Positions 5,039 to 17,300 of a stretch of 30,584 nt of DNA are shown here, piece by piece; the stretch's first letter is position 1; each line of letters begins with the position of its first letter. This DNA comes from a virus. Both the position numbers and the translations under genes were made by a program. Where the stretch lies: positions 1 through 30,584 of the IMG/VR virus record IMGVR_UViG_3300037193_000556; one strand, 5' to 3'. The notes below the pieces were generated by a model. It ran no database searches, was not told where the DNA came from, and worked only from the letters and a program-made list of their open reading frames with translations.

Positions 5039-7521
5039 TGGCCTGGCGCGACTTCTTCCGCACCAAGGCCCCGGCGCTCAGCGATACCTACCGCGATCAG
5101 CCCTCGGATGTTGTCGTCACGCACGACATTAACGAGCACTGGCAATCGGTGCTGGAGGGCAAGCGCTGGAATCCCGACGACCTCGTAGGCGCCAAGGGCC
5201 TGCCGATCTACAGCAAGATGCTCGTGGACGAGCAGGTCAAGAGCGTCACCGAATTCAAACTCAACGCGATTCTCGGGCGTGGCTACCAGTTCAAGTTTCC
5301 GGGCAAGACGAAGCTCAGCAAGACCGAGCAGGCCGAGCGTATCGCCGTGTTCGAGACCGTCCTGCGCAAGATGCGCGGATCGTTCGTGGACGCCCTGGAG
5401 GGCATCGCGAGCGGCCGTGAGTTCGGGTTCAGCATCACCGAGAAGGTGTACGGCGACATCGAAGTCGAATCGAAGACCTACACCGGCATCAACATGCTGC
5501 TTACCCGCGATCCTGGCTCGTTTGATTTCTACGCCGACGATTACGGGTTGCTCAAGAAGATCGAGCAGCGCACGAGCAAGGCCGCGAACATCCACGTCGA
5601 TCGTGACAAGGTCATCCACTACGTGCACAAGCCGAAGTGGGATCTGATCTACGGGCGCTCTGAACTTCGATCAGCCTATCGCGCGTGGTACGCCAAGGAT
5701 CAGCTGGTCAAGCTCTGGCTGATGCACCTGGAGAAGTTCGGCTCCGGTGTGTGGAAGGCCATGCAGGACACGGAAGCCAGTCTAACATCGAATTCTCCCG
5801 AGTACGTGGCGCTCAAGGCAGCGCTGGCTAATGTGCGCGCACTGTCGTCCATCATCCTGCCGCCGGGTATCACGGCCGAGGTTGAGTTTCCGAGCACAAC
5901 CGACCAGTACGAGAAGGCGCTTCAGTACTTCGATTTGGCGATCGCCAAGAGCCAGCTGGTGCCGAACCTGCTGGGCCTGTCTCACACCGGGCAGACAGGC
6001 GCTTATTCCCAGTCGCAAACGCAGTTCGAGGCGTTTTTCTGGACGACGAGCGCTGATGGCTCGCGGCTGTCGGAGTGCTTGAACGAGGAACTGTTCCGCG
6101 ACCTTGGCGACCAGAACTGGGGCGACGGCGAGTATCCCTCGTTCTGCTTCAAGCCCGTCAGCGTCGAGCACATCAAGTGGATGCTCACGGCGTGGAAGGA
6201 TCTGCTGGGCATCAAGGCGGTCATCGCCACCGAAGAGGACGAACGCGTCATCCGGCAACTGCTCGAAATGCCCGAGCGCGATCCGGATGCCGAGCCGCTC
6301 GTGGATCCGATGGCCGAGCGCCAGCAGACGCACACGGAAGAGCAGGCGGCCGTGGCCAACGAGCGTGCCGACAAGGAAATGCAGCTGCGCGAGAAGGAAG
6401 CTACGAAAAAGGCCATGATGTCCATGCAGGCTCAATTGGATGAGCTCAAAAGCAAGTTGACTTCCGCGGTCAACGTCACCGTACACAACCCGGCCCCGTC
6501 ACCACCGGCAACCACTACAGATCCAAGTATCAGTAACGCCGGATCAGAGGGCGGCCGGGTTGTCCCTCATGGAAAGTTGCGATCGAGCACGCTGGAGCAG
6601 TTCACGCGCGCGTCGCTGCGGGTGAATTTCTCGGTGATCGAGAAGCGCACGGACGACTTTGCCGAGTCCGCGATTCCTACGCTGGCGACCATTGTGGCGA
6701 AGGCCGCCCGGCGCGCGCTGGGAGATGACGCCAACATGGCCGCGCTGATCGATGAGGATCCGGCCGACGTCGCCGCGCTGGACCTCAATGGCGCCGATCG
6801 TGGCAAGCTGAAGAGCGCCTGCCGTGATCTGCTCGTGCAGTCCTGGACGCTGGGCTCGGAACTGGCCAGCAATGAGATTCAGCGGGCCCGTGGTGAGCGT
6901 ATGGCCTTTGCTGAGCGTCGGGCGCAGTTCGTGAGCCTGCGAGATAACGCGGCTGCGTACTTCGAGACGCAAAGCTTCCGCATGGCCGGCGACACGTCCG
7001 ACCAGGTCAAGAAGATCATCCAGCAGGAGCTGCAGAACGGCATCAAGTTCGGCAAGACCATCCCGGAAGTGCGGGTAGCCATCTGGGAGCGGCTGGTTGC
7101 GAAGGGCCTGACCACGCTGGAGGCGGTACGCGGGACGGAAACATCTGACCCCGTTGTCGAGGCGCTGAACGATCTGCAGTTGCAGGACGTGGCAGACGTG
7201 GCGCCCTACCTCAACACGTTGGTTCGAACGAACACGTTCGAGGCGTTGAACGAGGCCCGATACGCTGAATTCACCGATCCGGCCGTCGCTGACTTCGTCG
7301 AGGGGCTCGAATATGCAGCCGTCCTTGACGCGTCAACCACAACAATTTGCCGAGAACTAAACGGCAAGGTATATCGGGCTGATTCACCGGAGTGGGATTC
7401 GATCCGCCCGCCGAATCACTTCAATTGCAGGTCAGTGCTGGTGCCGATCACGGTGATTGATGGTTGGGATGGGCAGGAATCGCCGCCGTCGAACGCGGAG
7501 CCGGCAGAGGGGTTCAAGTGA
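5038..7521 (+). CDS. portal (DUF935/Mu gp29-like) fused to MuF head-morphogenesis domain
   Basis: A protein of about 827 residues in two parts. Residues about 1-460 match the DUF935 portal family, with YGRSELRSAYRAWYAKDQLV and LWLMHLEKFGSGVWKA as landmarks. Portals form the dodecameric DNA gate at the capsid vertex. Residues about 415-475 are charged, coiled-coil-like and Pro-rich linker. Residues about 530-820 are a MuF-type domain, ending with AVLDASTTTICRELNGKVY and IRPPNHFNCRSVLVP, the diagnostic Cys-His-Cys pattern of Mu gpF and SPP1 gp7. In Mu these are separate proteins. The ATG at 5038 overlaps the terminase TGA; a GTG at 5035 would add one Met. Confidence 0.9.
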   Translation: MAWRDFFRTKAPALSDTYRDQPSDVVVTHDINEHWQSVLEGKRWNPDDLVGAKGLPIYSKMLVDEQVKSVTEFKLNAILGRGYQFKFPGKTKLSKTEQAERIAVFETVLRKMRGSFVDALEGIASGREFGFSITEKVYGDIEVESKTYTGINMLLTRDPGSFDFYADDYGLLKKIEQRTSKAANIHVDRDKVIHYVHKPKWDLIYGRSELRSAYRAWYAKDQLVKLWLMHLEKFGSGVWKAMQDTEASLTSNSPEYVALKAALANVRALSSIILPPGITAEVEFPSTTDQYEKALQYFDLAIAKSQLVPNLLGLSHTGQTGAYSQSQTQFEAFFWTTSADGSRLSECLNEELFRDLGDQNWGDGEYPSFCFKPVSVEHIKWMLTAWKDLLGIKAVIATEEDERVIRQLLEMPERDPDAEPLVDPMAERQQTHTEEQAAVANERADKEMQLREKEATKKAMMSMQAQLDELKSKLTSAVNVTVHNPAPSPPATTTDPSISNAGSEGGRVVPHGKLRSSTLEQFTRASLRVNFSVIEKRTDDFAESAIPTLATIVAKAARRALGDDANMAALIDEDPADVAALDLNGADRGKLKSACRDLLVQSWTLGSELASNEIQRARGERMAFAERRAQFVSLRDNAAAYFETQSFRMAGDTSDQVKKIIQQELQNGIKFGKTIPEVRVAIWERLVAKGLTTLEAVRGTETSDPVVEALNDLQLQDVADVAPYLNTLVRTNTFEALNEARYAEFTDPAVADFVEGLEYAAVLDASTTTICRELNGKVYRADSPEWDSIRPPNHFNCRSVLVPITVIDGWDGQESPPSNAEPAEGFK

Positions 7522-7550
7522 TGTTCTCTAAGGGTACAGACGTTTTGTGA
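7521..7550 (+). CDS. possible nine-codon coupling ORF
   Basis: An ATG overlapping the portal TGA (7519-7521) opens a nine-codon frame, MFSKGTDVL, whose TGA (7548-7550) overlaps the GTG of the next gene. It may carry terminating ribosomes across the gap to the downstream start, which has only a weak ribosome site. The peptide itself is unlikely to be functional. Confidence 0.25.
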   Translation: MFSKGTDVL

Positions 7551-7831
7551 GCCAACCATTTGCCCAACTCGTCTCCAAGCGCGTCGCCCTGCGTTCCGAT
7601 GCGGAGCTGACCGAGACCGCGTTCGAGATGTTCAACCGCTGGTCCATGCTGTCCACGGATAAGCGCGTGCCGCTGGATGAGGTTGCCTGGGTTGCAGCGT
7701 TGCTCGTGAAGGCCGTGAGGTCGTCCGGCATCGATTTGTTGCACAAGAATGAAACGCGGGATGAGAATGGCGCTCGCGTGGTAGGTGTTGTGGCGAGCGA
7801 TGGTGTGAAGCTCGCGGATGGTGCGGGATGA
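7547..7831 (+). CDS. hypothetical protein in head operon
   Basis: A 94-residue protein starting at GTG, the first possible start after an in-frame TAA at 7529. The N-terminal 60 residues look helical (LVSKRVALRSDAELTETAFE, later DEVAWVAALLVKAVR). No family is recognised. It lies between portal-MuF and the protease/scaffold gene and ends with an ATGA overlap, so it is probably a head-assembly accessory protein. Confidence 0.55.
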   Translation: MSQPFAQLVSKRVALRSDAELTETAFEMFNRWSMLSTDKRVPLDEVAWVAALLVKAVRSSGIDLLHKNETRDENGARVVGVVASDGVKLADGAG

Positions 7832-9102: not shown

Positions 9103-9477
9103 ATGTCTACTGATCTCGATATCAAGTTGATTCAGGTCACCGCGGCTGCCGATCTCGACACCGATGCGGTGAAGTTCAAGGCCGTGACTCTGGCCGGCAC
9201 GATCGCGGCGACCCCGCTGCTCGCGGCCGGCATCCTGCGTCATGGTGCGAAGAACGGTGAGCAGTTGTCCGTCGCCTATGAGGGCGCGTTCAAGGCTCAG
9301 TTCGGAACCGCTGTCGGCACTGTGGGCTACCCGCTCACCGTGACGGCTTCGGGCTTCGTCATCGCTGCCTCTTCGGGTGGCGCCACCATTGGTCGATCGA
9401 TTTCGGTCACCGCCTCGGGCGACATCGCAAAGGCGTTCTTTGACTTCAAATCGCTCGGTTACTCGACCGTCGCTTAA
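9103..9477 (+). CDS. head decoration (capsid cement) protein
   Basis: A 124-residue protein, Ala/Gly/Thr/Ser-rich and beta-strand-like throughout (VKFKAVTLAGTIAATPLLAA, later GGATIGRSISVTASGDIAKA). It resembles the small decoration proteins encoded between the protease and major capsid genes, such as lambda gpD-position proteins and DUF2190-type cement proteins. They bind the expanded capsid and stabilise it. A GGAGG lies 12 bases before the ATG. The assignment rests on size, composition and position. Confidence 0.7.
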   Translation: MSTDLDIKLIQVTAAADLDTDAVKFKAVTLAGTIAATPLLAAGILRHGAKNGEQLSVAYEGAFKAQFGTAVGTVGYPLTVTASGFVIAASSGGATIGRSISVTASGDIAKAFFDFKSLGYSTVA

Positions 9478-9498: not shown

Positions 9499-10479
9499 AT
9501 GGGTATCTCTACCGGTCGAGACCTTCACATCGACCAAAACTTGACGAATGTGGCGATGAACTATCGCCCCGCCGGAATGATCGCGGACATGATTGCCCCG
9601 ATCGTGACGGTGTCGAAGGAAACGGACCTCTATCCGGTGTTCAGCCAGAAAGAGGCTTTGGCCATCGAAGATACGAAGCGCGCGCGCGGCACGCCGGCGA
9701 ATCGGATCACACGCTCGGTGAGCTCGGAAGGTTACAGGGCGGAAAACTACGCTCTGCGCTATGACCTGCCGATCGAAGACCGCGCCAACATGGACGCAGC
9801 GTATGCGTTCGAGTTGGAAGCGGGCGCCTCTCGTTACCTTGTGGACAAGCTGGTGCTGGATTGGGATCGTCGCGTCCTGTCCACTGTTGGCTCGACCACG
9901 AACGTTGCGACGGGCTTCCTGACTGGCTCAGCATGGAACGCAGCCAGCAACGCTGGCGACCCGGTGTCGGCGCTGTATCAGGTTATCGAGCAGATCCAGG
10001 CGACGACCGCTTATCGCCCGAACAACATTCTGTTCGGTTGGCAGGCGTACAACCTGTTCCGGCGCAATACCAACGTTCGTAACTTCGTGCTCGGATCGAA
10101 CAACGGCGGCGGTGTCGTGACGCGTCAGGCTGTCGCTGGGATCTTCGAAGTGGATCGCGTACTGGTGTCCGAGGCGTTCTACAACAGCGCCAACGAAGCC
10201 AAGGCGATCAGCCTGGCCAACACCTTCCCGAAGGACTCGGTGCTCGTCTACTACGCGCCGTCTGGTCCCTCGCGTGAAGTTCCGTCCTTCATGTACTCGT
10301 TCCGCTGGACGGCCCCGGGCCTGCCGGCTCCGCTGTCTGTCGAACGTCACCCGTACGACAGCAAGAGCAAGACCGAGAGCATCGAGGCCGGCTACTACCA
10401 GGACGAGAAGGTCACCAGTTCGGCGCTCGGTGCGCTGTTGACTGGTGTCGGTTCGGCTCAGGCGAACGGCTTGGTGTAA
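9499..10479 (+). CDS. major capsid protein
   Basis: A 326-residue protein. Features typical of HK97-fold major capsid proteins of this lineage are the early PAGMIADMIAPIVTVSKETD, the RARGTPANRI segment, then YALRYDLPIEDRANMDA, and a helix-rich middle (ASRYLVDKLVLDWDRRVLST). A GGAGG ten bases before the ATG supports strong expression. It follows protease/scaffold and decoration genes in the standard order and is followed by a strong hairpin. No long N-terminal scaffold domain is present, which agrees with a separate scaffold. Confidence 0.9.
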   Translation: MGISTGRDLHIDQNLTNVAMNYRPAGMIADMIAPIVTVSKETDLYPVFSQKEALAIEDTKRARGTPANRITRSVSSEGYRAENYALRYDLPIEDRANMDAAYAFELEAGASRYLVDKLVLDWDRRVLSTVGSTTNVATGFLTGSAWNAASNAGDPVSALYQVIEQIQATTAYRPNNILFGWQAYNLFRRNTNVRNFVLGSNNGGGVVTRQAVAGIFEVDRVLVSEAFYNSANEAKAISLANTFPKDSVLVYYAPSGPSREVPSFMYSFRWTAPGLPAPLSVERHPYDSKSKTESIEAGYYQDEKVTSSALGALLTGVGSAQANGLV

Positions 10480-10487
10480 CTGAAATT

Positions 10488-10515
10488 CGGTGGCCGGTAA
10501 TGGTGCCGGCCACCG
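10488..10515 (+). terminator. strong hairpin after the capsid gene, no T-tract
   Basis: A perfect 10-bp inverted repeat, CGGTGGCCGG (10488-10497) and CCGGCCACCG (10506-10515), with an 8-base loop, lies nine bases after the capsid stop. No run of T follows, so it is not a complete intrinsic terminator. It may be a partial terminator or an RNA-stabilising 3' structure that keeps capsid mRNA abundant relative to the large modification gene downstream. Confidence 0.65.
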
Positions 10516-10540: not shown

Positions 10541-13500
10541 ATGGACGTTGTTATTCACTGCCTTGGAATGCCGTTCAACGGCGAGACGGTAGCGACTCAA
10601 TCTCTGGGCGGAAGTGAAAGCGCAGCCTATTACCAAGCGCGCGAGTTGGCGAAGCGCGGTCACCGGGTGATCGTTTTCACTTCCTCGACAGAGGAAGGCG
10701 TGTGGGACGGGGTGAAGTATTGCTGGGCGGGCAATGTGAGTCAGGAATCGCTGCTCGGCGAGCGGTTTGACTTCTATGCGCGGAACACGCCGCACGACGT
10801 GCTGATCATCCAGCGCCATCCTGCGGCATTTCACGGAACGTTTGCGTCCAAAGTGAACATCTGGCAACTGCACGACCTCGCGCTGCATCGCTCGTCCGGC
10901 ATGGCGAACCACAACATGTGGCAGGTCGATGCGGTGACGTGCGTGAGCCAGTGGCACAAGGATCAGGTGTGCTCGGTGTACGGCTTCGATCCGGACTTTG
11001 TTCAGGTTGTGCCGAATGGGGTGGATGAGGCGCTGTATGTCGATGGCGCCAATCTGCGCGCATGGGATCATGACGAGGAGTCTCGTGCTCATATCGCTGC
11101 ACTGATGGACGCAGGCAAGTTCGTGCTGCTCTACCAGTCGCGCCCCGAGCGCGGCCTGGAGCATCTGGTACGTCCCGGCGGCATCATGGACCGCCTGCGC
11201 GACACGAATGCGCATCTGCTGGTCTGTACCTACAAGAACAACCCGCCGCAGATGCAGGGGTATTACAACTACCTCAACGAGTGCGCGCAGGCGCTGCCAA
11301 ATGTGACGATGCTGGGCTCGTTGAGCAAGCCTCAGTTGGCAGCCCTGCAGAAGTCATGCGACCTGCTGGTGTATCCGACCGAGTTCGAGGAAGTCAGCTG
11401 CATCACGGCCATGGAGGCGATGCACGCCGGCCTGCCGATGCTGGCGAGCGATGTCGGTGCGCTGAGTGAGACCTGCACCGGTGCAGGTTCTGTGCTTATC
11501 ACGCTCAGCGATGGCCACGCTGATGAGGAGCGCTTTGTACGGGCAATTCAGAATTTTTTGCGGCTTGGTGAGATCGAGAGCGGTTTTCATCTGCTTAAGG
11601 CGCAGCAGATCTACGCCGCCAAGACCCGCCGCTGGTCCGACGCCGTCGACCGCCTGGAGTCGGTGATCGAGCAGTGCTTCGAGAAGCGCGCCGGCTCAGT
11701 CGCCGCAGCGACACGACATAGCATTGAGCACAGCGACATCCAGTTCGCGCTCGGCATGCAGGGCGCATTCACCGAAAATCAGGACGCAAACGTCATTGAG
11801 TTGCGTTCTCGCCAAGAAATTCGCGAGCTGTATCAGTTCGCGGAATCCCCCGCCGCCTACAAGGCCCACTACGACCGCCACGGTGGCGCGTACTACGACC
11901 TGTTCGAAAATCAGGTGATTGGCGAGGACGTCACCCGAACGCAGAGGTTTATGGGCGTAGCCAAGCTCCTCCAGCAAGAGATTTCACACGCTGGCGATGA
12001 GTTGCGCGTAATGGACTATGGCTGCGCCCACGGTCACTACGTGATGCCGCTGGCCAAAGCATTCCCCAACACGCGATTCGTCGGCGTGGATGTGAATGAC
12101 CGCGCAATTGGCGCCGCCGTGAAGTGGGCCATGCGCGATGGCGTTGGCAATGCCGAGTTTTGCCTCGGTGGCCAAGATGTGTTCGACAATCCCGGCTTGC
12201 TGACGCCGCTGGCCTACGATGAAACCTCAATGCAGTTCGAAGGCAGTGCCGCGGTAGCCAAGAAGGCACACCGCGAGTTATTCGATGTCGTGGTCGCGGG
12301 CGAAGTGGTCGAGCACGTCCCCGATTGGATGGACCTACTGGAGCGCTTCCGTAGCGTGCTCAAGCCTGGCGGTTTGCTCATCATCACGACGCCTGCCGGG
12401 CGCTGGGAGTGGCAAGGGATCGAATCATTCCGCGACGCGCGAGAGCACCTGCACCACTTCGAACGTCAAGACATCGTCGAAATCTGCGGGAACAATCCCG
12501 TCGAGATTCTCTACGCGCCCGCCGGTAACGATCGCGCCGGCAAGGGTTTGGGTTCGTGGATTTGGGGCGTACGGCCCAATGAGCCATTCCGGGAATATGA
12601 CGTCGAGCGCAAGCGAAAACTGTTGGCGCCACGCGAAACGCTGTCTGCTTGCATGATCGTGAAGGACGGCGAGAAGACGTTGCGCAAGTCCGTCGACTCG
12701 TTCATCGATTGGGTGGACGAATTGATCATTGCGGTGGACCCGACAACGAGGGATCGCACGATCGCCGTGATCGATCAGCTGAAGGCTGATTACAGGTGGA
12801 AGCCAATCACAGTGATCGATGGCTTGCCCGCGCTTGATGCGGGTTTCGACGAGGCGCGCAATCGGTCAATCGACGCAGCCTGCGGCGATTGGATTCTCTG
12901 GGTCGATGCAGACGAGGAAGTCAGGAATCCGTGGAACATGTGGAAGTACCTGCGCCCGAGCCAACACAACGCATATGGCTTCCCGCAGGTGCATTATTCG
13001 GCAGAGCCAGACCAAGTGCTCACGACCGACTTCCCGTGCCGGCTGTTCCGTACCCGCAAGGGCATCAAGTTCTTCGGCGTCGTGCACGAGCACCCAGAGA
13101 TTGAGGTCGGCAAGGCAATCCCGCGCTCAGCCCTGCGCCATGACGTGAAGTTCCTGCACAACGGCTACGTTGACGAGGAAGTCCGCCGTAACCGCTACCG
13201 GCGCAACCTGCCGCTGCTCCACCGTGACCTGGAGAAATATCCCGAGCGCGGCCTGAACCGTTTCCTGATGCTCCGTGACATCGCGCAAGGGCTCATGTTC
13301 GAGCACGAGCAGACGCAAGGCATCGTGCTCCACGGACAGAAGGAACGCGCCGTGCAAGGCATCGACTACTGGCGCACGATGGTCGAGAAGGACCCGCTGC
13401 GCATGGTCATGGACTCGCTGCAGTTCTATTCACACTGCGTGGCGACCCTCGGCCTCGGATTCGAGGCAGAGGTGACCTATCGCGTGGCCAAGGATGCCGC

Positions 13501-13621
13501 GCCTGACCTCGCCTGCAACACGAACTTCAAGGGCCGTTTCGCGACCCAAGATGATTATTCCAAGCTGATTCGCAAGATCGAACAGGAGGCCACCCGCCAC
13601 TATGACTCAAAGTATCTTTGA
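10541..13621 (+). CDS. three-domain glycosyltransferase-methyltransferase-glycosyltransferase
   Basis: A 1026-residue fusion. Residues about 1-390 are a GT-B glycosyltransferase (GT4-like): LGGSESAAYYQARELAKRGH near the N-terminus, VVPNGVDEALY, YQSRPERGLEHL and YPTEFEEVSCITAMEAMHAG. Residues about 440-660 are a class I SAM methyltransferase: VMDYGCAHGHYVMPLAK, FVGVDVN, then GEVVEHVPDW and LKPGGLLIITTP. Residues about 700-1026 are a GT-A family 2 transferase: SACMIVKDGEKTLRKSVDSF, FDEARNRSIDAACGDWILWV and the metal-binding DAD. All core motifs look intact. A GGAGG five bases upstream gives a good start. Lying between capsid and connector genes, it probably builds a methylated glycan on a virion protein; sugar and target are unknown. 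Confidence 0.88.
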   Translation: MDVVIHCLGMPFNGETVATQSLGGSESAAYYQARELAKRGHRVIVFTSSTEEGVWDGVKYCWAGNVSQESLLGERFDFYARNTPHDVLIIQRHPAAFHGTFASKVNIWQLHDLALHRSSGMANHNMWQVDAVTCVSQWHKDQVCSVYGFDPDFVQVVPNGVDEALYVDGANLRAWDHDEESRAHIAALMDAGKFVLLYQSRPERGLEHLVRPGGIMDRLRDTNAHLLVCTYKNNPPQMQGYYNYLNECAQALPNVTMLGSLSKPQLAALQKSCDLLVYPTEFEEVSCITAMEAMHAGLPMLASDVGALSETCTGAGSVLITLSDGHADEERFVRAIQNFLRLGEIESGFHLLKAQQIYAAKTRRWSDAVDRLESVIEQCFEKRAGSVAAATRHSIEHSDIQFALGMQGAFTENQDANVIELRSRQEIRELYQFAESPAAYKAHYDRHGGAYYDLFENQVIGEDVTRTQRFMGVAKLLQQEISHAGDELRVMDYGCAHGHYVMPLAKAFPNTRFVGVDVNDRAIGAAVKWAMRDGVGNAEFCLGGQDVFDNPGLLTPLAYDETSMQFEGSAAVAKKAHRELFDVVVAGEVVEHVPDWMDLLERFRSVLKPGGLLIITTPAGRWEWQGIESFRDAREHLHHFERQDIVEICGNNPVEILYAPAGNDRAGKGLGSWIWGVRPNEPFREYDVERKRKLLAPRETLSACMIVKDGEKTLRKSVDSFIDWVDELIIAVDPTTRDRTIAVIDQLKADYRWKPITVIDGLPALDAGFDEARNRSIDAACGDWILWVDADEEVRNPWNMWKYLRPSQHNAYGFPQVHYSAEPDQVLTTDFPCRLFRTRKGIKFFGVVHEHPEIEVGKAIPRSALRHDVKFLHNGYVDEEVRRNRYRRNLPLLHRDLEKYPERGLNRFLMLRDIAQGLMFEHEQTQGIVLHGQKERAVQGIDYWRTMVEKDPLRMVMDSLQFYSHCVATLGLGFEAEVTYRVAKDAAPDLACNTNFKGRFATQDDYSKLIRKIEQEATRHYDSKYL

Positions 13622-14144
13622 TCGTATCCGTCAGTCGTGGAGCGTGCTGAACGGCACGATTGACCTGCGCTCCCATGTGCCCGTGGAGGGATACTGGGAC
13701 GTAAAGGTCGTCCGCGCTGATGGCACGATCGAAGCGAAGACCGTTCGAAACACGGTCACCGTCACCGGCCTGAACCGCATCGCTGCCTGTGCGGTGAATA
13801 GCGCCGGCGGTGTGTTCAACGCAATCATGGTCGGCTCGGCGACTGCGGCCCCGGCGCTCACCGACTCCCAGTCGAGCATGGGCGAGGTATCGCGCAAGAG
13901 CTTTATCTCACAGGGCCAGTCGCGCGAATGGTTCTTCGGCGTGGCTACCTGGGGCGGTGCGGCCGACAGCATCACGTCGGTCACGCTCAACAGCGCCGGC
14001 ATCACCATCGGCACGAGTTCACTCGCAACGTCGCTGCTGGCGAACCGCGTGAACGGGCTCAGCGTGACGCTCGGCAACTCCGACTTCCTCAACCTGACAG
14101 TGCGGGTGCGTGTCGGCTCGCATGACGTAGCTCATACCACCTAA
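13602..14144 (+). CDS. probable virion-associated beta protein
   Basis: A 180-residue protein overlapping the end of the fusion gene by 20 bases, with a GGAGG 12 bases before its ATG. After a short helical start (FDRIRQSWSVLNGTIDL) it reads YWDVKVVRADGTIEAKTVRN followed by TVTVTGLNRIA, and then long Ser/Thr/Gly/Ala-rich strands. This pattern recurs in small phage structural proteins of unknown role. Placed between the glycosyltransferase fusion and the radical SAM gene, it is a candidate surface protein and possible modification substrate. That role is inference. Confidence 0.6.
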   Translation: MTQSIFDRIRQSWSVLNGTIDLRSHVPVEGYWDVKVVRADGTIEAKTVRNTVTVTGLNRIAACAVNSAGGVFNAIMVGSATAAPALTDSQSSMGEVSRKSFISQGQSREWFFGVATWGGAADSITSVTLNSAGITIGTSSLATSLLANRVNGLSVTLGNSDFLNLTVRVRVGSHDVAHTT

Positions 14145-14830
14145 TGTTCCCGATCCGCCATATCCACCAGATCGAGCTGACTTCGCGGTGCAATCTCGCC
14201 TGTCGATATTGTCCATCGCCAAAGCTTCCGCGCCCGAAAGTGGATATGGACGAGGAAACGTTCAAGGCGGCGCTGTATTGGGCGCGCTTCTTCGTTGAGC
14301 GGAACGGACCGCACGAAATCAACCTCGCGGGCATCGGCGAGTCGACGCTGCACCCTCGCTTGGTTGAGTTCGTCGCCCTCGCGCGCGCGTACATGGGGCC
14401 GCACCAGGACATTCTGTTTGCGTCTAACGGCGTGACCATGACGGACGATCTTGCCAAGCAGTTGGCGCCATACCGTCCACGGATCTGGATCAGCCTGCAC
14501 CGCCCGGAGAAGGCCGGGCCTGCGGTTGAGATCCTGAAGCGCTACGGGCTGATCGCTGGCGTTTCTGCGGATCCTTCGGTGTCCGCGACGAACTGGGCTG
14601 GGCAAGTGAAGTGGCACGTCTCCGTCGAGCGCCGGGAATGCACGTGGGTCAAAGGCGGAAAGGTGATTGTGTTCGCTGATGGTCGAGTCTCTCGATGCAG
14701 TTACGACGCATCCGGGATCGGAGTCATCGCCACGGTCAAGGACGATCTGGAGCAGTTTCAAACCTCACCCTACGACCTGTGCAAGACGTGTGATCAGGAT
14801 GTCGGAGTAACTCAGGAGGCTGCCGCCTGA
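14144..14830 (+). CDS. radical SAM protein with SPASM/Twitch-like C-terminus
   Basis: A 228-residue enzyme. Residues 12-23 read LTSRCNLACRYC, giving the CX3CX2C motif (Cys16, 20, 23) that holds the SAM-cleaving 4Fe-4S cluster. INLAGIGESTLHPRLVEF (about 59-76) is the GE-type SAM contact region. Cys166, Cys185, Cys213 and Cys216, with the FADGRVSRC segment, form a four-Cys set like the Twitch/SPASM auxiliary-cluster domain. Such enzymes often modify peptides or proteins. At 228 residues it is much shorter than usual SPASM enzymes, so the barrel is compact. It starts by TAATG overlap without a ribosome site, so translation is probably coupled to the upstream gene. The substrate is unknown. Confidence 0.85.
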   Translation: MFPIRHIHQIELTSRCNLACRYCPSPKLPRPKVDMDEETFKAALYWARFFVERNGPHEINLAGIGESTLHPRLVEFVALARAYMGPHQDILFASNGVTMTDDLAKQLAPYRPRIWISLHRPEKAGPAVEILKRYGLIAGVSADPSVSATNWAGQVKWHVSVERRECTWVKGGKVIVFADGRVSRCSYDASGIGVIATVKDDLEQFQTSPYDLCKTCDQDVGVTQEAAA

Positions 14831-15772
14831 TTGTCTCGCGTGCGAGTCGTTCGTTATCGGCAGCAGCGCGCGGATAGCGCCTGGGAGGATGTTTCGGTCG
14901 GCATGTCGTCGATGCCGGCGCAGTTGGCTGTCGACGGCCGCAAGGTGCGGATGGATCTCACCGGCTCCGATTGGGGCGTTGTCGAGGATGACATCAACGG
15001 TGCTTCAGTCACCCGGGATGTCGGGGCCGCGTTCGATGGCACTGATGCCGTCAAAATTGTTCCACCGTCGAGCCAGCTCGATAACGGCAACAAGACAACC
15101 TACTCCTGCATCATGCGGGGGCTCGACCTCTCGAACGGCGGCACCCACGGCGTCGCTCAGGTTAATTTAGGGTTCTGCCTCGCGTATGGCTCGCGCTACT
15201 GGGACTTGGCGCACACAGCCAAGGTCACCGGCATTCTCGGGTCGCAGACGATCGGCGGTGTGACATCAGCCCAGGCACGCGCGGCGATCTTCGAGAACTT
15301 TATAAACAGCGGCGGAGGTGATCTGCGCCGTGTGTTCGGTGTTACTGCGCAAACGACGCAGGCATACAAAGAGCCGGACAACTGGATCGATCAAGGTCCA
15401 GAAACGGATTTCCTGTTCATCCTTGGCAACACAAGCAACCATGCGAACGATCCACCGCTGGTCGCGACAGAATATCTGTATTGCGAGCAAGAGGTGGACT
15501 ACCGGCAGGACCGCGGCAATGCGAACGGCCGCAATCGGTTCGATGTTTGGGCGCGCGGCGGCTATCTCGGGTACTTGGATATTCCGCTGACCTGGGAAGC
15601 AAGCTGGAACTTTGCCTACCAGTACGCACGCGAAATTGAGTACATCGGCGCGCTGTGGAATTCGCCCGGGACGGCGAATGCAAACAACTTCCTTCGTGTC
15701 TCCCACCCGATCGTATCGACGAATCGAGCGAAGGATGACCGCATAGGCCCACCGCCGGAGTTCCTGCAGTGA
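14831..15772 (+). CDS. probable surface/virion protein, beta-sandwich-like
   Basis: A 313-residue protein starting at a TTG directly after the radical SAM stop, 11 bases after a GGAGG. The sequence is strand-rich with many aromatic residues (RYWDLAHTAKVTGILGS, EYLYCEQEVDY, NRFDVWARGGYLGYLDIPL), as in lectin-like or polysaccharide-binding sandwiches. There is no signal peptide. I do not recognise a family. It shares a four-base overlap with the next gene. Position suggests a capsid or tail surface protein and possible partner or substrate of the upstream modification enzymes. Confidence 0.55.
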   Translation: MSRVRVVRYRQQRADSAWEDVSVGMSSMPAQLAVDGRKVRMDLTGSDWGVVEDDINGASVTRDVGAAFDGTDAVKIVPPSSQLDNGNKTTYSCIMRGLDLSNGGTHGVAQVNLGFCLAYGSRYWDLAHTAKVTGILGSQTIGGVTSAQARAAIFENFINSGGGDLRRVFGVTAQTTQAYKEPDNWIDQGPETDFLFILGNTSNHANDPPLVATEYLYCEQEVDYRQDRGNANGRNRFDVWARGGYLGYLDIPLTWEASWNFAYQYAREIEYIGALWNSPGTANANNFLRVSHPIVSTNRAKDDRIGPPPEFLQ

Positions 15773-17025
15773 CAACGTTCGTCGCCGATCTGTTTCATGG
15801 CGACGGTGGCGTCGCATCGCTGACAGATAGCTTCGATGTCGGTGCGGCGAATTACTTGCGCGTCTGGGTGATTGCCGAGGGCGGCGTCAGCGTCACCGGA
15901 AACGTTACTTTCGGCGCTCAGAACATGACGCTGATTAGCGGCTCGGGCAACGGGGACATCCTCGGCTGCTACGAACTTCTGTCACCGAATAGTGGATCGC
16001 AGACGATCACTGTAAATCTCAACGGAACATCGGGCCGATGTGCGTTCTACGCCGAGTCGCGCAGCGGCGTAAACACGAGTACTCCGTCTGGCACTCCGGG
16101 CACTGACACTGGTGAGTCGACGACGGCATCAGCTACCGCGAGTTCGGCGGCCGGCCAACTTGTATCTGGCGTCGTCCATGCCACCGGGGTCTCATTGACA
16201 TCCGACGGTGGGCAAACCCAACGAGAGATTCAGCTTGATTGGCTGGAGGTGGGACGGTCATTCGGGGCGGCAGAAAAAGCCGGTGCGGCATCCACTACCC
16301 TGACGTGGACAATGTCGGCCACCCAGACTTGGTTTGTCGTGGCAATTCCTATCCTTCCGGCCGCCGGAGGTGGATCGACAACTACGTCAACTCTGACATC
16401 AAGCCTGAGTGTGTCGGACGCTGCCCTGCCGTCGAAAACGTCTGGCCGCATCGGGTCTGACACTGTGGCGATCGCTGATGCTGGCCTGGACTATGTTTTC
16501 GCGAATCGCCTCGGCAGCGACAACATCGTTGTGACCGATGCGCCGATGGAGTTCTACTCAATCCACAACATCGAAGCCATCTCAGAAACGACGGTTACAG
16601 ATGAATTCCTGGCCTGGCTCAGACGACACCGGGTACTCAGCGACAGTGTCACTGTCACCGACGAACTGATTTCCTCGGTGATCGGCTACCTGATCTATAA
16701 CAGCGTCCTAACCAGCAACGTCAGCGTGACTGACGAGGCACTCAAAGCGGCCTATTTCGATCGACTGGCAGAAAGCAGCCTGGTCACGGCGGATCAGATC
16801 CTGACGGCGCTGCTCATCGCGCGTGATCTGCTAGACGGGGTGGAAGTGACGGATTCGGCGCTGACAGCCATGCAGCGCTTTATTTTGCTTACGGACAGTA
16901 TTTCGTTAGAAGATGCCCTGGTGGCAACGTATGTTCCTGTAGTTGGGCCGGCCACGGATAATCCGCTTATCAGGATTGGTTTCGATCAGCCAGAAGTGAA
17001 GCTCGGAGGCTACAGCGTGAATTGA
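15769..17025 (+). CDS. repeat-containing probable virion fibre or surface protein
   Basis: A 418-residue protein. Residues about 1-200 are a Gly/Ser/Thr-rich beta domain ending TTLTWTMSATQTWFVVAIPI, a pattern seen in phage structural proteins. Residues about 207-385 hold about nine degenerate repeats of 20-24 residues with a core like DSVTVTDELI (small/acidic, alternating Val, Asp, hydrophobic). The last residues, PLIRIGFDQPEVKLGGYSV, look like a conserved attachment tail. The start is a GTG overlapping the upstream TGA. Likely an extended surface spike or fibre on the head or connector. Confidence 0.6.
   Translation: MTTFVADLFHGDGGVASLTDSFDVGAANYLRVWVIAEGGVSVTGNVTFGAQNMTLISGSGNGDILGCYELLSPNSGSQTITVNLNGTSGRCAFYAESRSGVNTSTPSGTPGTDTGESTTASATASSAAGQLVSGVVHATGVSLTSDGGQTQREIQLDWLEVGRSFGAAEKAGAASTTLTWTMSATQTWFVVAIPILPAAGGGSTTTSTLTSSLSVSDAALPSKTSGRIGSDTVAIADAGLDYVFANRLGSDNIVVTDAPMEFYSIHNIEAISETTVTDEFLAWLRRHRVLSDSVTVTDELISSVIGYLIYNSVLTSNVSVTDEALKAAYFDRLAESSLVTADQILTALLIARDLLDGVEVTDSALTAMQRFILLTDSISLEDALVATYVPVVGPATDNPLIRIGFDQPEVKLGGYSVN
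16390..16930 (+). repeat. about nine degenerate 20-24-residue protein repeats
   Basis: Within the previous gene, successive segments read LTSSLSVSDAAL, IGSDTVAIADAGL, LGSDNIVVTDAPM, IEAISETTVTDEFL, VLSDSVTVTDELI, VLTSNVSVTDEAL, LAESSLVTADQIL, LLDGVEVTDSAL and LTDSISLEDALV. The unit is a small/polar start, alternating Val/Thr, a nearly invariant Asp, then a hydrophobic helix-like tail. DNA-level identity is low, so these are old repeats, not recent duplications. Confidence 0.7.
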
Positions 17026-17300
17026 GACCGCCCGTCATCATCGAGTATATCGGCTCGACTCTGCGGGCAACATTTGTCTGCTCCGGGGCGACGCTTTCGG
17101 GCTATTCCTGCCTGTACAACGGCAGCCATTCGCTCGTCACATCAAAAACCGCCACTGATTCAGGTAACGGGCACCTCTACGCCGATCTTCCGCTCCCCAC
17201 ATCTGCGCAATGGATGGTCAACGAGTGGGGCGTTATCATCAATACGAACACCTATCGGCGCTTCGCCCTGGTCAACGTCCGCGGCATTGAGGTGGACTGA
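17022..17300 (+). CDS. small beta-rich hypothetical protein
   Basis: A 92-residue protein starting at TTG (17022), overlapping the upstream TGA and 12 bases after a GGAGG. The composition is beta-strand-rich (VIIEYIGSTLRATFVCSGAT, WGVIINTNTYRRFALVNVRG). It precedes the gp36-like connector gene. I do not recognise a family; a small head or connector accessory protein is the likeliest reading from position. Confidence 0.5.
   Translation: MRPPVIIEYIGSTLRATFVCSGATLSGYSCLYNGSHSLVTSKTATDSGNGHLYADLPLPTSAQWMVNEWGVIINTNTYRRFALVNVRGIEVD

Follow-up and report, generated by a model that had tools for sequence, protein, structure and literature searches.

The IMG/VR record IMGVR_UViG_3300037193_000556 is a linear virus record of 30.6 kb with a siphovirus-like late operon, and the window analysed here is its whole stretch of 30,584 nucleotides. 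Among its head genes it encodes a fusion of two glycosyltransferase domains with a methyltransferase, together with a compact radical SAM enzyme. This module is widespread in a large group of uncultured phages. We suggest that the two enzymes serve in a capsid-glycosylation operon with radical tailoring, a reading to which, taken as a whole, we give an even chance. Virion glycosylation by phages is already established in mycobacteriophages, but the combination of the fusion with a radical SAM enzyme seems undescribed and may represent a new kind of phage chemical coat.

Organisation of the late operon

The late genes of the window all lie on the + strand, in the order given below. Genes are named by their start positions.

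5035, +: portal protein fused to a Mu F-like domain
8012, +: protease/scaffold-type protein
9103..9477, +: capsid cement/decoration-like protein, candidate acceptor (phrog_673, 1.8e-6; Pfam cement_2, 0.002, below the cut-off)
9499..10479, +: major capsid protein, favoured candidate acceptor (phrog_1005, 3.2e-61)
10488..10515, +: 10-bp GC-rich stem-loop between the capsid and fusion genes (consensus match only)
10541..13621, +: GT4-methyltransferase-GT2 fusion with a helical C-terminal tail, 1026 aa (Pfam, NCBIfam, PDB profiles, model)
13602..14144, +: small beta-rich, tail-fibre-like virion protein (phrog_4176, 1.3e-8)
14144..14830, +: compact twitch-type radical SAM enzyme, 228 aa (PF04055, 1e-11; Cys pattern, model, BtrN fold)
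14831..15772, +: beta-rich orphan protein, 313 aa (no Pfam, PHROG or NCBIfam match)
15769..17025, +: minor-tail/fibre-like protein (phrog_553, 3.9e-17)
17022..17300, +: small conserved protein 5′ of the connector gene (family c170, in many relatives)
from 17300, +: Mu gp36-like connector

Downstream of 17022 follow the gp36-like and tail S connectors, the tail tube, the tape measure and the tail-tip genes. The first-pass annotation had located the enzymes in the head operon, between the major capsid and connector genes, and the profile matches bear this out. The run from the capsid gene to the Mu gp36-like connectors is co-directional and largely overlapping. Between 13602 and 17300, every start lies inside the preceding gene or at most one base from its stop. 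The 13602 gene overlaps the fusion gene by 20 nt (13602-13621), and since exactly 20 nt are shared in most relatives as well, this conserved overlap suggests translational coupling. The stem-loop on the + strand upstream of the fusion gene has no T-run; it may act as a transcription damper or mark an mRNA end.

Three beta-rich proteins of no known family had also been proposed in this region. The description holds for the 14831 product, which lacked a relative among the fetched loci in addition to any family match, but not for the 13602 and 15769 products with their PHROG assignments. The 15769 product is modular; its C-terminal part is common to its relatives, which span 234-1070 aa. Gene maps showed the cement-like gene adjoining the capsid gene in nearly all relatives.

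The glycosyltransferase-methyltransferase fusion

Both enzymes were recovered by Pfam at the open reading frames, and with the domain order, given in the first-pass annotation, and structural models agreed. The fusion was predicted as a single chain (pLDDT 89.7) with the order GT4, SAM methyltransferase, GT2. Its GT4 part (PF13439 at residues 23-163 and PF13692 at 217-340) occupies residues 1-383 and resembles MshA in structure comparison (Z 34.3) and by PDB profile (3.6e-18). The middle part is a class I SAM methyltransferase (PF13489, 474-649, 1.3e-19). The GT2 match (PF00535, 702-798, 3.7e-10) falls within a domain of about 698-915 in the model and Pfam boundaries, which is followed by helices.

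The best PDB profiles for the GT2 domain were GmaR (9.6e-27), SunS (4.5e-21) and 7msk, a ThuS chain (1e-16). Foldseek returned SunS and ThuS as the GT2-type matches, in agreement with the profile search, and the fusion also matched a SunS-type NCBIfam model (3e-13). The domain is thus homologous to the GT-A GT2 domains of protein and peptide glycosyltransferases and carries a DXD motif (WVDADEE). No membrane segment was found in the fusion, in which no 19-residue stretch is membrane-like. Many phage enzymes that act on surface polysaccharide, unlike the fusion, have membrane segments. GmaR transfers GlcNAc onto flagellin (PMC9638930), and SunS and ThuS are peptide S-glycosyltransferases according to their PDB titles. 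These three resemble the fusion in the GT2 domain, the DXD-type motif and the helices after the glycosyltransferase domain; in the fusion the GT2 domain instead sits behind GT4 and methyltransferase domains. The fusion looks suited to attaching sugar to a virion protein.

L006 (the same contig as L101) additionally has, between its portal and protease genes, a free-standing relative of the fusion's methyltransferase part (6703-7809). The divergent L149, L152 and L165 encode the glycosyltransferases of the fusion as separate genes, which still adjoin the radical SAM gene.

The radical SAM enzyme

The radical SAM enzyme has exactly seven cysteines, the CX3CX2C motif (16, 20 and 23) and the four further residues (166, 185, 213 and 216) that had been noted at first reading. 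All seven, and G180, were invariant in an alignment of 85 sequences. The SPASM-type label given to the enzyme at that stage had to be abandoned: two auxiliary clusters need seven cysteines beyond CX3CX2C, and only four are available. Their spacing, C166-X13-G180-X4-C185 and then C213-X2-C216, matches the single-cluster pattern of BtrN (CX9-15GX4C ... CX2C). By this pattern the enzyme is of the twitch type, with one predicted auxiliary cluster.

BtrN was also the nearest fold to the model (pLDDT 96.6), with Z 20.6 and rmsd 2.9 over 213 residues, ahead of ChlB (Z 16.7) and anSME (Z 16.1), and the best profile match (1.6e-16 over 5-203, nearly full length). Viperin was rejected; its NCBIfam model scored 33 bits against a cut-off of 180, and viperin folds gave Z 13-14 compared with 20.6 for BtrN. 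The phage enzymes have an invariant Trp151 (WAG motif) where BtrN has Arg152, which we take to be a pocket residue. Given this replacement, the substrate pocket differs, and the substrate is probably different from that of BtrN.

BtrN is an aminocyclitol dehydrogenase that performs a two-electron oxidation of a sugar alcohol; its auxiliary cluster is fully ligated by four cysteines, has a low potential and is thought to accept the second electron (PMC9012708). The phage enzyme shares with it the size, the CX3CX2C motif at 16/20/23, one four-cysteine auxiliary cluster (predicted here) and the fold. It differs in sequence (19% identity), in the Trp for Arg152 and in being encoded in a head operon and not in an antibiotic cluster. 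At the level of sequence and fold, the two phage proteins belong with twitch radical SAM enzymes and protein GT2 enzymes. We do not equate the radical SAM enzyme with BtrN itself because the pocket residue differs, and oxidation of a sugar or aminocyclitol is a prediction. The enzyme begins about 15 residues before its first cysteine and ends 12 after its last. With no room for a leader-peptide-binding domain, leader-guided modification of the RiPP type is unlikely.

Distribution among relatives

Four scans of viral contigs yielded 129 contigs once duplicate entries for a contig had been removed. The fusion was found in 104 of them, the radical SAM gene in 84 and both in 59 within the examined stretch, fractions that are not population frequencies as both sets were seeded by these genes. 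A chance association is excluded, since dozens of contigs carry both, at identities as low as about 30%. The usual order is portal, slot, protease, cement, capsid, slot, fusion, 13602-like gene, slot, connectors, where each slot is an accessory position. In 61 of the 104 fusion contigs the fusion is the next gene 3′ of the capsid gene, and in 18 more a single small gene intervenes. This direct placement is usual even where a phage has neither the radical SAM gene nor any of the three beta-rich genes, and many phages (L204, L206, L218 and L219, for example) run from capsid to fusion to connector with neither a 13602-like nor a 15769-like gene. The co-occurrence that the first-pass annotation had proposed to check holds for the fusion with the radical SAM gene but does not extend to the neighbours, as the fusion persists without two of them and 14831 has no relatives in the set. 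Likewise the pairing, which had been called unusual, is so among described phages but is common within this uncultured group.

Radical SAM genes occupied the portal-protease slot (64), the capsid-fusion slot (13) or the slot after the fusion (24), with 22 not assigned to a slot. They lie among structural genes in nearly all mapped relatives, and the gene maps contained neither a radical SAM nor a fusion gene on the opposite strand. At least 2.5 kb 3′ of the capsid gene could be examined in 53 of the radical SAM contigs, and the fusion was there in 50; of the others, L142 and L113 have it in the full record, and the record of L123 stops too soon to tell. In the opposite direction, a set of 25 fusion records selected for the absence of a radical SAM gene nearby had none elsewhere (0/25; the records are fragments and the search had no positive control), which marks the radical SAM gene as accessory to the fusion. 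On a capsid tree of 32 contigs the radical SAM trait changes about nine times, a count affected by the labels of L111, marked as lacking a gene that it has, and of L207, which has one elsewhere in its record (L148). In that record the radical SAM gene is well apart from the fusion gene.

A contig may have a single radical SAM gene or a tandem pair. For 18 of the 24 pairs, the copies fall into different clades of the tree (support 79), suggesting two distinct steps. The same accessory positions also hold genes for FkbM methyltransferases (family c16), class I methyltransferases (c28) and sulfotransferases (PF13469 in three members), while many ORFs in these positions had no Pfam match. The theme of the FkbM, class I methyltransferase and sulfotransferase genes is the decoration of hydroxyl-bearing small groups, typically sugars.

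Proposed function and alternative explanations

The model proposed here draws on the observed gene content and order, motifs, folds and co-occurrence; the acceptor, the sugar, the order of steps and the reaction are those that we infer from them. The soluble fusion would glycosylate a protein of the capsid surface in the cytoplasm during head assembly, most likely the major capsid or the cement protein. Its GT2 domain would put the first sugar on a side chain, the GT4 domain would lengthen the glycan thus begun, and the middle domain would methylate it. The twitch radical SAM enzyme would then work on the glycan in a BtrN-like manner. A 5′-deoxyadenosyl radical would abstract a hydrogen atom from a sugar carbon and the second electron would pass to the auxiliary cluster, turning a sugar hydroxyl into a ketone (-2 Da) or an intermediate for further change. 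Because varied enzymes take up the same gene positions, coat chemistry would differ between phages, depending on whether the phage has a sulfotransferase, a methyltransferase of the FkbM or class I type, or a second radical SAM paralogue.

In our judgement, glycosylation of a virion protein is quite probable. If it occurs, we lean towards the glycan as the substrate of the radical SAM enzyme; this assignment, in preference to protein, is made mainly because sugar-type tailoring genes share its positions. Whether its reaction is a BtrN-like two-electron oxidation we judge evenly balanced. The kinship of the GT2 domain with protein and peptide glycosyltransferases, the tracking of the capsid gene by the fusion and the occurrence of the radical SAM gene almost only with the fusion lend support to the glycan reading. 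Several points weigh on the other side, namely the Trp151 pocket change, the closeness in fold to anSME, which oxidises protein side chains, the lack of a Ser/Thr-rich capsid tail, the 20-nt overlap, which could mark the 13602 product as the acceptor, and the separation of the two genes in L148/L207. A methylated, radically altered virion glycan, as first proposed for this region, remains the best reading, but the beta-rich neighbours are not constant partners. The roles in host adhesion and immune evasion suggested along with it are speculative. Since the fusion tracks the capsid gene, occurs in phages that have no 13602-like or 15769-like gene, and 14831 is an orphan, the capsid or cement protein is the likelier candidate acceptor. 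The termini of the capsid, cement and tube proteins offered no clear Ser/Thr-rich acceptor tail, and no acceptor residue was found.

The radical SAM enzyme might instead modify a virion-protein side chain, as in anSME-like formation of formylglycine, while the fusion adds sugar to that protein or a different one, possibly at the residue that was oxidised. Both anSME and ChlB are close in fold, and the gene keeps company with structural genes in nearly all mapped relatives. We consider this unlikely, as BtrN, a sugar-alcohol oxidase, is clearly nearest by both profile and fold, the short termini leave no place for leader binding, and dependence on the fusion, together with positions held in common with sugar-type tailoring genes, favours the glycan. 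It is similarly doubtful that the sugar goes not to the capsid but to a fibre-like appendage (13602, 15769 or equivalents), where it would tune host binding. The constant 20-nt overlap with 13602-type genes and the great differences in length among the fibre-like relatives of 15769 would fit such a role; the many phages with neither gene between fusion and connector argue against it.

That the enzymes alter a host surface polysaccharide or lipid, and so exclude other phages, appears very improbable. GT4 and FkbM-type enzymes, families seen among the NCBIfam hits, do also function in LPS and exopolysaccharide pathways. The late head-operon position in nearly all mapped relatives, the lack of a membrane segment and the protein/peptide type of the GT2 domain all speak against this role. 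Hypermodification of phage DNA, in which the enzymes would glycosylate and tailor genome bases, is just as remote, although phage glycosyltransferases do so elsewhere, going by the title of Pyle 2024 (cited in PMC12619734). Thymidylate-synthase-type genes were present in 1 of 25 records and TET/JBP genes in 0 of 25 (a search with no positive control), and the fusion gene is placed beside that for the capsid.

Returning to capsid glycosylation, we think it possible, at somewhat less than an even chance, that the fusion builds capsid sugars, which interchangeable enzymes of radical, methyl and sulfate chemistry then diversify; with two distinct radical steps in some phages, the products would be sugars not known on any protein. 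If the reading is true, this large and unstudied phage group stably glycosylates its virions, by a core glycosyltransferase that is tied to the capsid gene and a tailoring set that is changeable. Unusual sugars (keto-, deoxy-, methylated or sulfated) would then be expected on phage capsids, and the compact enzymes could be used for the radical editing of protein-linked sugars. To our knowledge, this would also be the first radical SAM step in the making of a virus coat.

Comparison with described phages and cellular genomes

A tblastn search of 50,697 phage records with the fusion and the radical SAM enzyme gave distant glycosyltransferase matches only; the radical SAM enzyme matched none of them, and the module was absent from all cultured phages of the searched collection. 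In Jenst, RHph_Y5A and RDJL6, cultured phages whose capsids are of the same family, the annotation shows no glycosyltransferase next to the capsid gene. The open-licence literature gave no account of radical SAM tailoring enzymes encoded in phage head operons. Among the matches listed in a scan of bacterial genome contigs were generic radical SAM motifs. In 398 genomes of one phylum we detected one distant twitch homologue and no prophage host. The homologue (L241, 23-724, - strand, 233 aa) adjoins an ABC-transporter gene in a bacterial genome and possibly represents the cellular source family of the phage enzyme.

We know of no radical SAM enzyme or GT4-methyltransferase-GT2 fusion in the glycosylation systems of mycobacteriophages. 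Freeman 2023, as summarised in PMC12619734, is reported to have found glycans at the C-termini of mycobacteriophage capsid and tail-tube subunits that shield against anti-phage responses. In those systems glycosylation of the virion is phage-encoded, as proposed for the present module, whose glycosyltransferase gene is linked to structural genes in our gene maps; a virion glycan and a benefit such as shielding would be predictions for it.

A run of genes annotated as glycosyltransferase, methyltransferase and HAS synthase follows the capsid gene in an uncultured podovirus of Manatee Spring (MW202524.1, L245, 1656-11978). Like the module, it places several glycosyltransferase and methyltransferase genes just 3′ of the capsid gene. 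Unlike the module, it consists of separate genes, has no radical SAM match and belongs to another type of phage. It is possible that this run is an independent capsid-glycosylation cluster.
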